Shown here: piece by piece, positions 34,027-43,633 of the stretch
How positions within the stretch are numbered: the first letter of the stretch is position 1
Layout: each line of letters begins with the position of its first letter
NCBI GenBank assembly: GCA_002787035.1
Contig: PCVP01000024.1
Coordinates: 1 to 64,000 of the forward strand
Origin: Candidatus Peregrinibacteria bacterium CG11_big_fil_rev_8_21_14_0_20_49_14
GTDB taxonomy: Bacteria > Patescibacteriota > Gracilibacteria > Peribacterales > Peribacteraceae
Length of the DNA stretch: 64,000 nucleotides
Direction: 5' to 3'
The notes under the pieces: model-generated
The model's database searches: none
What the model saw: the letters and a program-made list of their open reading frames with translations, nothing else
What the model was told of the DNA's origin: nothing
Program-made: the position numbers and the translations under genes

Positions 34027-37002
34027 CTATTCTCCTTCTTTCTCCTGTAGAGGAATGTCTCCTTCCGGAGGTAATGCCTGATTCTCTTGCCCCAGGCTGT
34101 CTGCGCTTATGACGAATTTAATGTCTTCGTCCGCTCTTTGTTTCTGTGGTTCTTGGTTCTGAGAGCTTTGAGTGTTGGCCGGTGTATCCTGCGTCATTTT
34201 CAGCCACTCGGGTACCGGATCACTATTTTGCTGAGTATCGGAAGGTTTTTGTGATTCTGTCACTGCAGGTTGGTTTGTCTCTGGTAGCTCTGCAGGAGCG
34301 TCTACCGGAGGAGGTGGAGGAATAGACGGTGTAGTACTTGCAGACTGTAACCACGATGGGACAGGTGCGACGGAAGTCTGTGAGTCCACTGGAGGAGTTG
34401 TGCTATTTTCCGGCTGTCGCGGCTGTCGCGGAAGGGTTGATTCTTTTTTTTCTTCTTCCGTAGGAGCAGCGGGAGCAGGCGGTGCGGGAGCGCTTTGCAA
34501 CCAAGCCGGAACAGCATCCTGCTTTACGGGCTCAGGAGCTTTTTGCTCAGGTTCTGAGACAGGCTTAGTGTCAGGAGGTGTAGGAATATTCGGAGTCGTA
34601 ACTGTCGCAGCAGCAGGAGTGACAGAAGCGGCTGAAGGGGGGATGCTCTGCAGCCATGCGGGCACGGGAGCGGGTACGGTAGATTGAGGAGCTTCTTTTT
34701 GCGAAGGAGCTTGTTCAGATACCTTTTCAGCCTGCCGTACATCTGTATTGTCGGCATCGGCAGTACGTTCTCTTTCTCGCTTATTTGTACGGTAACGCTG
34801 ACGCTTTTTGCGTTTACGCTCCCTTTCTTTCTCTTCCGGAGTCATTTCTCCCATTGGTTTTTGTATGGTATTGACGGAATCCTGCGAGGGCACGGGAGCG
34901 GGGGCAGTTGTGGCAGGTGACTTCTCAGCGGGTTTGCTCGGTACATTGGTAAGCCACGGCGGTGATGGTGCTGCCTGTGTTGCAGTTGATGTTCCTAATG
35001 GGGGAGTGACAGCAGGAGTGGCAGAAGAAGGGGCGGAAGCCACTTCCTTGTCCTTTTCAGGAGCGCTTGGCACCGCGGAAAGCCATGGTGGAGTAGGTGC
35101 GGAAACAGCTTCTTTGGCAGGGCTTACAGCATTTGAAGTTTTCTGTTGAGATGGTGTTTCTGTCGGGAGTTTTTTATCTGCAGACTCGCTTGTTGTATCC
35201 CTTGTGTCCACAGTTCTCGGTGCGGAAGTTTGAACAGGAGAATCCGATTGAGCCGGAGCGGATACAGGTGGTGGCGGTGGCGGAGGATTTTGAGTGACAC
35301 TTTCCGCACCGGCCAACCATGGCGGGGTGGCAGCAGGTGCCTGTGCAGGTGGCGTTTCTTCGGGTTTTTTCGTACGTAAATCTTCCTCGGGATATTGTGC
35401 GGCTGCAGCCGAGACTTGTGTAGTTGTCGGTGCGACTTCATTCACGGGAACCGTCTTTGTCGGTTCGGCAGGCGGCGGAGGGGGTGGAGGCGGAGGTGGT
35501 GGAGGAGTCGGTGACGATGCGGGTATATCCACTCCTTCCGCGGGGGACGGCGCAAGCCAACTTGGCACTTGCCTGTGAATCTCCGGAGTTTTTTCTTGTG
35601 GTACTTCCGGCTTGACTGCTTCTTCCGGCACATCTTTCTTTTCTGCTTCTTCCTTCGGTACGAGATCTTCTATGAATTCAGCATCTGTGGAATTTGCGGC
35701 AATTTCCATGGGTGCGGCAGGTTCCGTGACATCTTCCGCAGTCCCCACCAGCTTCTTTTCAACTTTTTCCAATGAATCCTGCAGCGATTTTCCTTTTATT
35801 TTCGCAAAGAGGAATACAGTCAGCATTCCGATTCCAACAGATGCAGCAAGTCCCAATACTGCCTTCAGTACTGTGGACACCAGAGATCCTTTCTCTTTTT
35901 GTGCCTTCGGAGGGCTGTCTTCTTTCGGTTCCTCTGCGGATGGCTCCGTTACATCTCCGTTCGGTTCTTCAGTGGTAGGCGGAGAAATTTCAGGTTCTGT
36001 TGATTTTCCTATGAAGACCATTTGCGAGGCATTCAGCACTTCGCTTCCGTCGGTAAGATTCACGATTCGTAGTGTTATGCGGTACTCCCTTTGCGTATCT
36101 GCATACGTATGATTCGGTCTGTTTAGAAGGCTTTGTGTTCCATCGCCGAAATCCCAGAAGTACAAAAGAGGAGCTTGTGGCAGCACACCGTCTTCCGTTT
36201 GTACTGAAATTTTGTATGTGTCTCCCTCTTGTTGTGTTGAAGAAATTTTTGTTCGTTCTTTTCGTGCCAGCTCCTCGGCTTCCGCCTGATTGCGCAGAAT
36301 TTCGTAGTAGGTATCTGTCACTATTTCAATCGCTTGCGTGAGAAAAGATCCGTTACGAAATTTGGCAGCTAGAAGCATTTTCTGGCTTGTCAGATTTTTT
36401 GGAAGCCATATGTGCAGACTGCCCTCTCCGGAACTGAAAATACTTTTTCCTAAAATATTGTCATTTTGAGAGTCTCCGTCTCCGTTGGTATCGAGTTCCG
36501 TATTCGCATCCAAGGCGAGCAGTTCAATATCGTTTTGAATAACATCCAAGCGGACAAGTCGTTTGGTGCCCACAAGACTTACGATGTTATCGTTGTCAGC
36601 AGCGGGAAAAATGCGTGTCAGCAAATTCTTTTCCGCTTTTGTTGCCAATTCTATGAGTGGCACATCTTGTCGAACATCAAGGCGAAGTATCATACGAACA
36701 GGGGGTTGCCCCGCGTCCGTCATTTCTCCGCTCAGCAAATATTGTCCGGCTTCGGAAGGTCTGAAACTGAAAAAAGGTCCTCTGTCTGCCTGTGCAAATA
36801 CGCCGTTTTTCGTAAGAACCCAGCTCACTTGTGAGTTTGAGTTTGTTGTGTTTGCATAAATTTCAAATATCGAACCGGGTCTGAGGGATACGTCTTCCAC
36901 TGTCTCAGGTCTGCTCTGCGCGTTTGCGACCGTAACGGATGCAAGTACTCCGCTAAGCAGAATAGTGAGAGTTAACCCGTATGGGAGAGAAAAACGACGC
37001 AT
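34027..37002 (-). CDS. PKD-domain membrane scaffold with proline-rich tail and eight PxWL motifs
   Basis: A 991-residue modular protein. A signal peptide (1-28) is followed by an extracellular region with a PKD-like domain around residues 275-330 (FWDFGDGT near 282), an acidic/Pro linker, one transmembrane helix (about 374-400) and a cytoplasmic tail of nearly 600 residues. The tail is Pro/Ala/Ser-rich with poly-Pro runs (12 near 500, 7 near 573), a very basic patch (724-747) and eight copies of PxWL, with the Trp at 482, 562, 640, 683, 783, 834, 884 and 933. It lies 18 bases downstream of the VirB2-like gene. The repeats suggest multivalent docking of one partner; the function is unknown. 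Confidence 0.75.
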   Translation of the reverse strand: MRRFSLPYGLTLTILLSGVLASVTVANAQSRPETVEDVSLRPGSIFEIYANTTNSNSQVSWVLTKNGVFAQADRGPFFSFRPSEAGQYLLSGEMTDAGQPPVRMILRLDVRQDVPLIELATKAEKNLLTRIFPAADNDNIVSLVGTKRLVRLDVIQNDIELLALDANTELDTNGDGDSQNDNILGKSIFSSGEGSLHIWLPKNLTSQKMLLAAKFRNGSFLTQAIEIVTDTYYEILRNQAEAEELARKERTKISSTQQEGDTYKISVQTEDGVLPQAPLLYFWDFGDGTQSLLNRPNHTYADTQREYRITLRIVNLTDGSEVLNASQMVFIGKSTEPEISPPTTEEPNGDVTEPSAEEPKEDSPPKAQKEKGSLVSTVLKAVLGLAASVGIGMLTVFLFAKIKGKSLQDSLEKVEKKLVGTAEDVTEPAAPMEIAANSTDAEFIEDLVPKEEAEKKDVPEEAVKPEVPQEKTPEIHRQVPSWLAPSPAEGVDIPASSPTPPPPPPPPPPPPAEPTKTVPVNEVAPTTTQVSAAAAQYPEEDLRTKKPEETPPAQAPAATPPWLAGAESVTQNPPPPPPPVSAPAQSDSPVQTSAPRTVDTRDTTSESADKKLPTETPSQQKTSNAVSPAKEAVSAPTPPWLSAVPSAPEKDKEVASAPSSATPAVTPPLGTSTATQAAPSPPWLTNVPSKPAEKSPATTAPAPVPSQDSVNTIQKPMGEMTPEEKERERKRKKRQRYRTNKRERERTADADNTDVRQAEKVSEQAPSQKEAPQSTVPAPVPAWLQSIPPSAASVTPAAATVTTPNIPTPPDTKPVSEPEQKAPEPVKQDAVPAWLQSAPAPPAPAAPTEEEKKESTLPRQPRQPENSTTPPVDSQTSVAPVPSWLQSASTTPSIPPPPPVDAPAELPETNQPAVTESQKPSDTQQNSDPVPEWLKMTQDTPANTQSSQNQEPQKQRADEDIKFVISADSLGQENQALPPEGDIPLQEKEGE

Positions 37003-37020
37003 GTACGTTTGTATTGTGTA

Positions 37021-37395
37021 TTAATTGGTTGTCGGGATACTGGCGAGTATTTCCACCAGTCCCTGTGCGAGCAAGATTACTATCAGTCCCGCAATTGCGA
37101 AGAAGACTATTCGCTTCGCCCTTTCTTTGTTTTCATCATTTCCTCCACTGAATACCAAAATAATTCCGGCAATGACTATCACAACCACGGCAGCAAGCGC
37201 CATGTACGAGAGCACCTTTTTGACTATGGTAATAACAGTGGGTCGTATGAGGTTTCCTCCGACCACAGTCGATGCACTGCCCGCACCACCCGTGAGCCCT
37301 GCTCCGGAATATTCAGAAGCGTATGCTGCTCCTGTGCTTACAGCTACGAATGCAGCGGTACAAAGTGCCGAAATGCGTGTGTGAAGAGCGAGCAT
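37021..37395 (-). CDS. VirB2/TrbC-like pilin-type membrane protein
   Basis: A 124-residue protein with a signal peptide (about 1-25), a Gly/Ser/Ala-rich stretch, and two hydrophobic helices (VLSYMALAAVVVIVIAGII; IVFFAIAGLIVILLAQGLV) separated by a charged loop GGNDENKERAKR. This is the architecture of VirB2/TrbC pilins of type IV secretion systems. It is first in a unit with the PKD/PxWL scaffold. TACTAT lies 8 nt before the ATG. No relaxase or VirB4 homologue is seen in the window. Confidence 0.7.
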   Translation of the reverse strand: MLALHTRISALCTAAFVAVSTGAAYASEYSGAGLTGGAGSASTVVGGNLIRPTVITIVKKVLSYMALAAVVVIVIAGIILVFSGGNDENKERAKRIVFFAIAGLIVILLAQGLVEILASIPTTN

Positions 37396-41020: not shown

Positions 41021-43633
41021 GTGGCGGCATTCCTCAGCATCTTCTTCTGGCCGGTAGTTCTTGGCATAACCGCACTCGGTACCAGCCTTGTAAAAGCCGA
41101 TATCTGGCTGACTATTTGGGATTGGTTCATCAACGATCCTTTCATGGCTGTTCTGTGGGTGTTATCCGGTTATCTTGCGTGGAAACTTTTGAAGAAATAC
41201 GCGAGGTTGTACTACGCAATTCGACAATCAAAAAAACTGGTTGCCATCAAAATTATCCAGCCTCGCAGTGATAGCAAAATTGACCAAGAAAAAAGGACAG
41301 ACAAAGATTTCAAAGAAAAGATGGCCGTTATGGAACAGCTGTACCGTGCTCTTTGGGAAGTACGAAGTCTGACCATATGGCAGACTGTTCACTTTTGGAT
41401 TTTTCGATACCTCACTATCAGTTTGGAAATTTTCTTAAACAAGGGTGAGCTGATGTTCTACGTCGTCACGCAGCCGAAGTTCGCATCTATCGTCGAAAAA
41501 CAGATCACAGCGTTCTATCCCGATGCGGAAGTGTATCCGGATCAAACTCCTGAAATCTGGCCCAAAGGGTCGAAGTTGGTCGGGTACAACATGGCGCTTA
41601 AAAAGCCGTTTATGTACCCCATTCGTTTCTATGAGCAAATGCAGGACGATCCGCTGAATGGTATCGGAAACGTGCTGAGTAAATTGCAGGAAGAAGAAAC
41701 GGCAACCATTCAAATGGTCATGACTCCCTCTTTTTCAAACAAGTGGGGAAGGCGGGCACAAGAGCGTGCGTCCATGATGTTTAAGGGGAAGAAAGATAAT
41801 TTCTTAAAACATGTACCGGGTCTTTCCATTCTGGGATACATAGTCGATATGTTTGCCACGTCCGGTGAAGGTAATATGGCTCCCGGTGCCAAGCAGGGTG
41901 ACGCGTTTATTCGAATGATTCAACCTGAAGAAGAATTGTACAAACGTATGGGCGAAAAAGGAGGTATGAGTTTCTATCACTGTTCCATTCGTATTATGGC
42001 AGCCGCAAGTACGTGGCAGCGTGCGATAGAAATTACGAACAATATGCAGGTTGCCTTCAACTCGTTTAAAGATCTCTACGGAAACTTCTTTCAGAACAAG
42101 CGAGTTCTTAGCGACATTATGCCGCTGAAATGGAACGCTCCGCTCATCTACAAGCTTTGGAAACGACGGTTAAACGGCTATATGACTCCGGATTGTTTGC
42201 TTGTGGAGAAAGAACTCGCAGGGCTGTATCACTTCCCGGATAGCCGCTACAACAAAATTCCTATCATACAGTGGAGCACTTACAAAATTCTTCCGCCTCC
42301 TCCGGATGCTCCGACAGAGGGAATACTTCTCGGTAACAATAAGTACAGAGGAGTCGAAACACCTATCCGATTCATTGGAAAAGACCGTACAAGACATCAT
42401 TACATCATAGGAAAATCCGGTTGCGGTAAATCTGCGTTGCTCTCATGGATGTCTCGGCAAGATATTGCCAATGGAGACGGGCTGTGCCTGGTAGACCCGC
42501 ATGGAGATCTTGTGGAAGATGCGTTGGCACACATACCGAAAGCACGCGCAAAGGAAGTCATTGTGTTTGATCCTTCGGACTTGGAGCGTCCGATGGGACT
42601 CAATATGTTGGAGGCACACACGCCGGAAGAAAAAGACAGAGCCGCACTGGATGCGATGGAAATTTTCATCAAGCTCTTCGGAAATGAGATCTTCGGACCA
42701 CGTATTCAGCATTACTTCAGAAACGGATGTCTTACTCTCATGGATGATGAAGAAGAGGGTGCGACTCTCATAGACGTTCCACGCATGTTCGTGGATGAAG
42801 AATTTCAGCGTTACAAAGTAAGTAAAATACGTAATCCCGTCGTGCGCAGTTTCTGGGAGCATGAAATGGCTCAAACGGGAGACCGGGAACGTCAGGAAAT
42901 GATTCCGTATTTCAGCTCCAAGTTCGGTCCTTTCATTACAAATACCACCATGCGTAACATCATCGGGCAACCGAAGAGCGCATTCAATATTCGGGAAATC
43001 ATGGATTCGGGAAAAGTGCTGCTTGTGAATCTTTCCAAAGGAAAAATCGGAGATACCAACGCGGAACTTCTCGGTCTTATTTTCGTAAACAAAATAAGCA
43101 TGGCTGCCATGAGCAGAGCAGATATGCCGCGAGCGGACAGAAAACGTTTCTACTTGTATGTCGATGAGTTCCAAAACTTCGTGACAGACGCCTTTGCAAC
43201 CATTCTCTCGGAAGCTCGTAAATATGAGCTCGCACTTGTTATGGCGCACCAGTACATCGGCCAGCTTGTCGGTAAAACGTCATCGTACGGAGAAGGAGGT
43301 ACCAAAATGCGAGATGCGGTGTTCGGTAACGTCGGCACAATTATGAGTTTTAAAATAGGTGCAGAAGATGCCGAGTACATGGCAAAGGAATTTGCACCGG
43401 TTCTCTCGGAACAGGATGTCATAGGCGTGCCGAACTTTAACTGTTACTGTAAACTCAACATCAATAACGTGCAGTCGCGTCCGTTCAGTATGTCCACTAT
43501 CTGGGATGAATCGAAGAGAAATGAAGATCTTGCCAAACTCATAAAAGAGTACAGTCGCCTCAAGTTTGCGCGAAAAAAAGTTTTCGTCGATCAAGAAATA
43601 GAAGATCGCATCGGTATTCAGCGAGGAAAATAA
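41021..43633 (+). CDS. VirD4/TraG-like ATPase (paralogue B)
   Basis: An 870-residue ATPase with one or two N-terminal membrane helices, a middle domain shared with paralogue A (12136-14655) and a VirD4/HerA-like motor. Walker A is GKSGCGKS (residues 464-471) and Walker B is FYLYVDEFQNF (from 710). Shared blocks include RPMGLNMLEA, EIFGPRIQHYF and ILSEARKYELALVMAHQYIG. The start is GTG 41021, the first after the extended -10; no Shine-Dalgarno sequence is seen. The 3' end, including the stop codon, is repeated downstream. It is near the VirB2-like pilin and PxWL scaffold genes, so it may power the same apparatus. Confidence 0.82.
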   Translation: MAAFLSIFFWPVVLGITALGTSLVKADIWLTIWDWFINDPFMAVLWVLSGYLAWKLLKKYARLYYAIRQSKKLVAIKIIQPRSDSKIDQEKRTDKDFKEKMAVMEQLYRALWEVRSLTIWQTVHFWIFRYLTISLEIFLNKGELMFYVVTQPKFASIVEKQITAFYPDAEVYPDQTPEIWPKGSKLVGYNMALKKPFMYPIRFYEQMQDDPLNGIGNVLSKLQEEETATIQMVMTPSFSNKWGRRAQERASMMFKGKKDNFLKHVPGLSILGYIVDMFATSGEGNMAPGAKQGDAFIRMIQPEEELYKRMGEKGGMSFYHCSIRIMAAASTWQRAIEITNNMQVAFNSFKDLYGNFFQNKRVLSDIMPLKWNAPLIYKLWKRRLNGYMTPDCLLVEKELAGLYHFPDSRYNKIPIIQWSTYKILPPPPDAPTEGILLGNNKYRGVETPIRFIGKDRTRHHYIIGKSGCGKSALLSWMSRQDIANGDGLCLVDPHGDLVEDALAHIPKARAKEVIVFDPSDLERPMGLNMLEAHTPEEKDRAALDAMEIFIKLFGNEIFGPRIQHYFRNGCLTLMDDEEEGATLIDVPRMFVDEEFQRYKVSKIRNPVVRSFWEHEMAQTGDRERQEMIPYFSSKFGPFITNTTMRNIIGQPKSAFNIREIMDSGKVLLVNLSKGKIGDTNAELLGLIFVNKISMAAMSRADMPRADRKRFYLYVDEFQNFVTDAFATILSEARKYELALVMAHQYIGQLVGKTSSYGEGGTKMRDAVFGNVGTIMSFKIGAEDAEYMAKEFAPVLSEQDVIGVPNFNCYCKLNINNVQSRPFSMSTIWDESKRNEDLAKLIKEYSRLKFARKKVFVDQEIEDRIGIQRGK

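Follow-up and report, generated by a model that had tools for sequence, protein, structure and literature searches.

Introduction

Patescibacteria are known to carry pilins of the type IV secretion system (T4SS) type together with VirB4, PrgI, TrsD and VirD4-like genes (PMC12102498, PMC10633639). In S. epibionticum the pilins are essential, and in the one patescibacterial species with genetics epibiotic growth depends on T4SS genes (PMC10633639). A survey of T4SS genes in Patescibacteria mentioned pilin arrays but not a PKD protein or a scaffold of the kind described here, and found no PrgB-like adhesin (PMC12102498). We analyzed a two-gene locus from Candidatus Peregrinibacteria bacterium CG11_big_fil_rev_8_21_14_0_20_49_14 which lies in a stretch of 64,000 nucleotides (contig PCVP01000024.1, positions 1 to 64,000, hereafter the window). 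The locus encodes a T4SS-type pilin and a single-pass membrane protein of 991 residues, termed the scaffold, whose proline-rich tail contains eight copies of the short motif PxWL. We consider it reasonably likely that scaffold and pilin together make up a pilus-associated receptor or adhesin of a patescibacterial T4SS-type pilus, the tail of which docks one cytosolic partner through PxWL.

The window pilin resembles the patescibacterial T4SS-type pilins in that it belongs to PF18895 and that apparatus genes are present in the genome, but it differs in being obligately paired with a membrane receptor. Adhesins built of PKD or immunoglobulin-like (Ig-like) beads, such as SiiE, GhpA of Aureispira and the giant PKD proteins of Vampirococcus (PMC8080830), share with the scaffold an extracellular string of Ig-like domains, whereas the scaffold has a transmembrane (TM) anchor and a long, predicted cytoplasmic docking tail, and the fold match is only a generic one. 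The NCBIfam model NF058578, CPR_pilus_PamR (pilus system RbmA-like), weakly matched the PKD/Ig parts of related scaffolds and giant pilins, but these related proteins scored 18–33 bits against a cut-off of 300 and the window scaffold gave no match. No paper on CPR_pilus_PamR was found in the open-licence literature.

Eight PxWL motifs in a predicted cytoplasmic tail

All eight Trp residues of the 591-residue tail are located inside PxWL, at exactly the positions (482, 562, 640, 683, 783, 834, 884 and 933) given in an earlier reading of the sequence, hereafter the original prediction, and the poly-Pro runs and basic patch (residues 726-746) which it listed are also present. In 20,000 shuffles of the tail composition the mean number of PxWL matches was 0.05 and the maximum was 2. 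The tail is 19% Pro, and the motif could on that account be a chance or compositional artefact; with eight copies observed against 0.05 expected, and with conservation throughout the class, chance origin is excluded and we give this explanation practically no probability. Identity of the DNA around the eight copies was only 27–52%, so that a recent tandem duplication is ruled out; the repeats are old, or have arisen independently and been kept.

The ectodomain and TM region of the scaffold (A1) were modeled by AlphaFold2 (AF2) with a mean predicted local distance difference test score (pLDDT) of 85.6 as three Ig-like beta domains. A disordered linker leads from these to the TM helix (374-403), which is followed by a short helix. 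Mean K/R content rose from 1.3 before to 3.9 after the TM helix across 30 orthologues, and this positive-inside asymmetry, together with the order of signal peptide then TM helix, supports a predicted topology in which the Ig/PKD part is outside the cell and the tail inside. PF18911 was matched over the Pfam cut-off (31.6 vs 27 bits, residues 267-320 of the scaffold) on the side which would be secreted according to the signal peptide/TM order, as is found in PKD surface proteins. Both the extracellular PKD domain and the cytoplasmic placement of the tail in the original prediction were supported in this way, the latter by signal peptide, single TM helix and positive-inside rule. The best PDB matches of the ectodomain were Ig-bead proteins, including the bacterial surface proteins GhpA and SiiE, and as these matches were generic with low TM-scores only a generic bead architecture can be claimed. 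The conserved Asp-rich loop of Ig-like domain 2 is a possible Ca site.

Conservation of the motif in the family and class

Scaffold orthologues were identified by protein search in 39 of 59 relatives, among them 33 of the 35 members of the same family. P-x-W-[LM] was present in every homologous family tail (34/34, a set which takes in the paralogue L072) while the flanking sequence drifts, a persistence which the original prediction had required of orthologues. Of the 99 Trp residues in these tails 92 were in P.W[LM], where approximately 1.1 matches would be expected by chance. Within the genus, the P, W and L positions were identical at 21/21 sites to L002 and at 13/16 sites to L003, and identity over the rest of the tail was approximately 37% and 34%, respectively. 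Copy number in the family tails ranged from 1 to 8 and was mostly 2–3. The multivalent docking of one partner which had been proposed was therefore upheld in part: the motif is selectively kept and is best taken as docking a single partner, but multivalency is lineage-specific, 1–3 copies are usual, and elsewhere the motif is mostly C-terminal.

The full-length ectodomain profile A1 found only the family of the window, matches elsewhere being PKD domains, and a single-protein scan returned mostly PKD domains of Bacteroidota. Two weak matches from outside the family (L073, L074) were true counterparts, with an Ig/PKD ectodomain, one TM helix and a short tail containing PDWLK, and were encoded directly downstream of a giant pilin-PKD open reading frame (ORF). 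A profile built from these two proteins found many more counterparts in the class Gracilibacteria. The motif was present in 25 of 26 out-of-family loci, the exception (L184) being cut by a contig end; it accounted for 45/48 Trp residues and ended five or fewer residues from the C-terminus in 21 of the 26, with the consensus G-P-V-P-D-W-[LM]-K. The motif is widespread in the Gracilibacteria. A 210-residue protein encoded downstream of the L074 scaffold was considered as a partner and rejected, its gene not being adjacent to the scaffold in other out-of-family loci.

A search of 380 genomes of the phylum with the strict pattern [VIM]PDWLK gave matches in 18 genomes. Those of L328 and L329, from another class, were in a TM protein with Ig domains. 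Its tail is acidic and holds IPDWLK approximately 45 residues from the end, and synteny is conserved. The neighbours of this gene were a solute-binding-protein-like gene and a gene for a large TM protein, which in L329 was without Pfam match.

Trp-Leu prefers membrane interfaces, and the units could serve to anchor the disordered tail at such an interface or make it generally sticky, with no particular protein as partner, a view which is in keeping with the basic box in the same tail and with the free variation in copy number. Such a role would not account for the strict Pro at -2, the strong preference for D/E/A/S/P at x, the K or Q after Leu, the C-terminal placement or the near absence of Phe/Tyr substitution (128 P.W[LMI] vs 3 P.[FY][LMI]). 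These features argue for a shaped pocket, and we regard anchoring or stickiness as improbable.

A cytosolic enzyme with the same tag

Searches for PDWLK in sets of 15 and 19 genomes returned mainly the scaffold. The one other carrier found repeatedly was a soluble protein with DHH and DHHA1 domains (PF01368, PF02272), classed as NrnA-like in NCBIfam. Its tail, disordered and rich in Pro, has VPDWLKxx or IPDWLKxx at the end in five genomes (G346, G379, G332, G374, G366), and in G049 the protein has two internal motif copies. The presence of this tag at the C-terminus of a cytosolic enzyme independently suggests a cytoplasmic location for the scaffold tail, and a cytosolic or inner-membrane protein as the putative motif receptor. 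Taken with the motif of the scaffold tails, the independent VPDWLKxx end of the DHH enzyme suggests a shared cytosolic docking motif; the eight copies in the window are a lineage-specific multiplication. NrnA-like DHH proteins with long disordered tails, in which the PDWLK tag has been gained or lost between relatives, were observed in L224:7347-9125(+), L222, L223, L247, L252 and L282.

Most other P[DE]W[LMI]K matches were judged incidental, for example SPEWMK in a PheT-like protein (named from its sequence). P.WL[KQ] gave 21 matches in the window genome against 17 in a reversed control and was taken as background outside the scaffold. No second multi-PxWL protein was found in the other parts of the window genome that were sampled, which do not amount to the whole genome.

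The motif might instead dock on a T4SS ATPase, either a VirD4-like coupling protein or VirB4, as a recruitment or secretion signal. On this view the tagged cytosolic enzymes would be the substrates, loaded from the scaffold tail as a platform beneath the pilus. Like many T4SS signals, the tag is C-terminal. VirB4 was present in all 14 genomes tested, a VirD4-like gene is located in the window at 41021-43633, and in G049, and only there, VirB4 (L363:14410-16536(-)) adjoins the scaffold operon at a distance of approximately 1.5 kb. Against this, VirB4 and the scaffold do not share a contig in the window genome, the scaffold itself is a Sec-exported protein of which the tail alone would be inside, and a single further tagged protein was found, which is few for a secretion signal. 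We consider ATPase docking unlikely, while giving it some weight.

Comparison with the FtsZ C-terminal peptide

A PAFLR motif has been given for the C-terminus of bacterial FtsZ (PMC8178401), and PxWL could mimic this peptide and dock on FtsA or a similar protein, tying the pilus or adhesin to division or the cell poles. The C-terminal peptide of FtsZ, VPAFMRK, has a similar look. The last residues of FtsZ in the window genome are EELEVPAFMRKPISK, and [VIT]-P-[AS]-F-[MLI]-R was common to 24 FtsZ C-termini from the class and two outgroups. Within the class the form was P-A-F-[MLI]-R, usually preceded by V or I, which resembles V-P-x-W-L-K at the pattern level. Both peptides have the order hydrophobic-P-x-aromatic-hydrophobic-basic at the end of a disordered linker, followed by a few terminal residues. 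Mimicry is nevertheless doubtful at best in our view, since Phe was found in FtsZ of every genome and almost never in the tails (3 vs 128, Phe/Tyr vs Trp), and the Arg conserved in FtsZ was K/Q/A/S in the tails. In place of the Phe and Arg of PAF[LM]R the scaffold tails had Trp nearly always and K/Q after Leu. In addition, the motif did not follow the changes of FtsZ between families, its copies have been multiplied, and it is carried by a membrane protein and the DHH enzyme.

The paired pilin and the T4SS genes

The ORF upstream of the scaffold exceeded the cut-off of PF18895 T4SS_pilin (31.1 vs 26.6 bits), and the AF2 model (pLDDT 83) had helices at 2-24, 33-46, 50-82 and 87-119, the last two of which make up the two-helix hairpin expected of a T4SS pilin. 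There was no match to PF04956 TrbC/VirB2, so that the VirB2/TrbC-like pilin of the original prediction holds as a T4SS-type pilin but not as a member of the family first named. A profile search of PDB gave no match and Foldseek gave none at E<=0.001; short hairpins score weakly, so that distant homology may escape such searches. A pilin ORF was directly upstream of the scaffold in 30 of 30 loci examined, the window included (L006 was counted after its start codon was moved, and start codons are uncertain in some loci), and the proposed linkage to the pilin gene was accordingly consistent.

In L073, L074, L363, L364 and L366 the upstream ORF was a giant pilin-PKD ORF, in which PF18895 and PKD were confirmed by profile for L074 and L363; in the out-of-family loci the pilin part of this ORF was mostly outside the flank covered. 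In the giant ORFs (1294–1725 residues), which are pilin-adhesin fusions, many PKD domains come after pilin-like TM segments in the N-terminal region. Fused poly-pilins, single ORFs with approximately 3 to 5 consecutive two-helix hairpins, were also observed directly upstream of the scaffold. The window genome contains two multi-TM pilin ORFs of 289–298 residues (L036:1771-3540(-)). A second scaffold paralogue in G001 (L072:2518-4539(-)) has a single PDWL and a pilin match just upstream (G001:C44:5061-5258).

The window genome gave 14 matches to PF18895 at E<=1 and carries VirB4, PrgI and a TrsD-like gene in addition to the VirD4-like gene of the window, a set in keeping with the T4SS known from Patescibacteria (PMC12102498). 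Both the pilin and the Ig/PKD beads belong to a T4SS/adhesin repertoire already known from this group, and as such T4SS parts had been described before and are present in this genome, the "new envelope apparatus" originally proposed was too strong a claim.

Other features of the locus

Coordinates are collected in Table 1. The basic box was found in approximately half of 30 orthologues (11 or more K/R within 20 residues, in most cases KRQRYRxN), with the consensus KRxKRQRYRxNKR / ERKRxKRQRYRxNKR. Of the 27 complete family tails, 25 had the third conserved tail motif, [FI][VI]x-A-[DE]-S, close to the C-terminus as counted by eye, a regular expression having missed five. It was not obvious in the listed tail ends of out-of-family scaffolds.

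Table 1. Locations of the scaffold, pilin and related features (window positions unless a locus is given)
Feature	Location	Strand	Remarks
Scaffold/receptor, 991 aa, single-pass membrane protein, bicistronic with pilin	34027..37002	-	Pilin ORF on same strand ends 18 bp before scaffold start
Signal peptide, ~residues 1-27	36922..37002	-	Hydrophobic N-terminus; helix 8-26 in AF2 model
Ig-like domain 1, residues 33-110	36673..36906	-	AF2 model, pLDDT mostly >90
Ig-like domain 2, residues 129-229	36316..36618	-	Conserved Asp-rich DxxxDxDGDGNPxND loop; invariant D165, D171, D181; AF2 model
PKD domain, residues 252-331, W-x-FGDGxxS	36010..36249	-	PF18911; invariant W283, F285, G286, D287
TM helix, residues 374-403	35794..35883	-	Hydropathy, AF2 helix, K/R asymmetry
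Pro-rich tail, predicted cytoplasmic, residues 404-991	34030..35793	-	Follows TM helix; positive-inside
PxWL 1, PSWL, residues 480-483	35554..35565	-	RQVPSWLAPSP identical in three congeners
PxWL 2, PPWL, residues 560-563	35314..35325	-	
PxWL 3, PPWL, residues 638-641	35080..35091	-	
PxWL 4, PPWL, residues 681-684	34951..34962	-	
PxWL 5, PAWL, residues 781-784	34651..34662	-	
PxWL 6, PAWL, residues 832-835	34498..34509	-	
PxWL 7, PSWL, residues 882-885	34348..34359	-	
PxWL 8, PEWL, residues 931-934	34201..34212	-	
Basic box ERERKRKKRQRYRTNKRERER, residues 726-746	34765..34827	-	Conserved, mid-tail
Third conserved tail motif DEDIKFVISADSL, residues 958-970	34093..34131	-	[FI][VI]x-A-[DE]-S
T4SS-type pilin, 124 aa, signal-like helix and two-helix TM hairpin	37021..37395	-	PF18895; AF2
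Giant pilin-PKD ORFs	L073:2465-7642, L074:5163-9431, L363:6335-10219, L364:2836-7413, L366:675-5276		
Fused poly-pilin ORFs	L010:606-1484 (+), L014:389-1456 (+), L027 pilin ORF 459 aa		
Ig-TM protein with IPDWLK	L328:3632-5581	+	Other class, same phylum
Ig-TM protein with IPDWLK	L329:3853-5820	-	Other class, same phylum

Discussion

We propose an arrangement in which the pilin and several Ig/PKD-like domains in a row would be outside the cell, where they may make contact with a host. One TM helix would span the membrane, and the disordered inner tail would display P-x-W-[LM]-[K/Q], a short motif on which one putative cytosolic partner would dock. The computed results establish the pairing of the genes, the order of domains, motif conservation and the presence of the motif on a cytosolic enzyme; topology, adhesion or contact with a host, the partner and avidity are inferred. 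PxWL would thus probably plug the surface machinery into one internal partner. Ancestrally, a disordered linker probably led to a single motif right at the C-terminus. The family of the window would have multiplied the motif to 1–8 copies, with avidity or a gathering of the partner beneath the pilus or adhesin as possible effects. The NrnA-like phosphoesterase would have gained the same tag in relatives, presumably for recruitment to the same partner.

Several observations weigh against this proposal. A single motif copy is common, which indicates that multivalency is not essential, and the DHH tag is missing in most relatives and in the window genome's own copy (L289). Outside the class the strict pattern gave similar proteins only in G277 and G624 (L328, L329). 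In addition, the Ig-like folds were matched only generically, at low TM-scores, the partner is putative, and topology and adhesion are predictions.

In the open-licence literature searched (PxWL, PDWL) we found no description of the docking motif and its operon, nor any paper on short linear motifs in Patescibacteria, and the motif is apparently undescribed before. More broadly, and tentatively, a class-wide P-x-W-[LM]-K may couple pilin-linked receptors and at least one nucleotide-metabolising enzyme of Gracilibacteria to a shared cytosolic hub as yet undescribed, and motif copy number would then be a setting that evolution can turn up or down.

The motif bears on the way in which the pili and secretion machinery of Patescibacteria are linked to the cell interior. 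As a conserved short peptide it can be synthesized as bait, so that a search for the partner is directly feasible, and the pilin-receptor operon offers a class-wide marker for such machinery. If the broader, tentative reading is true, these tiny, probably host-attached bacteria would possess a docking system, unknown before, which runs from outside to inside at the machinery with which epibiotic bacteria contact their hosts.

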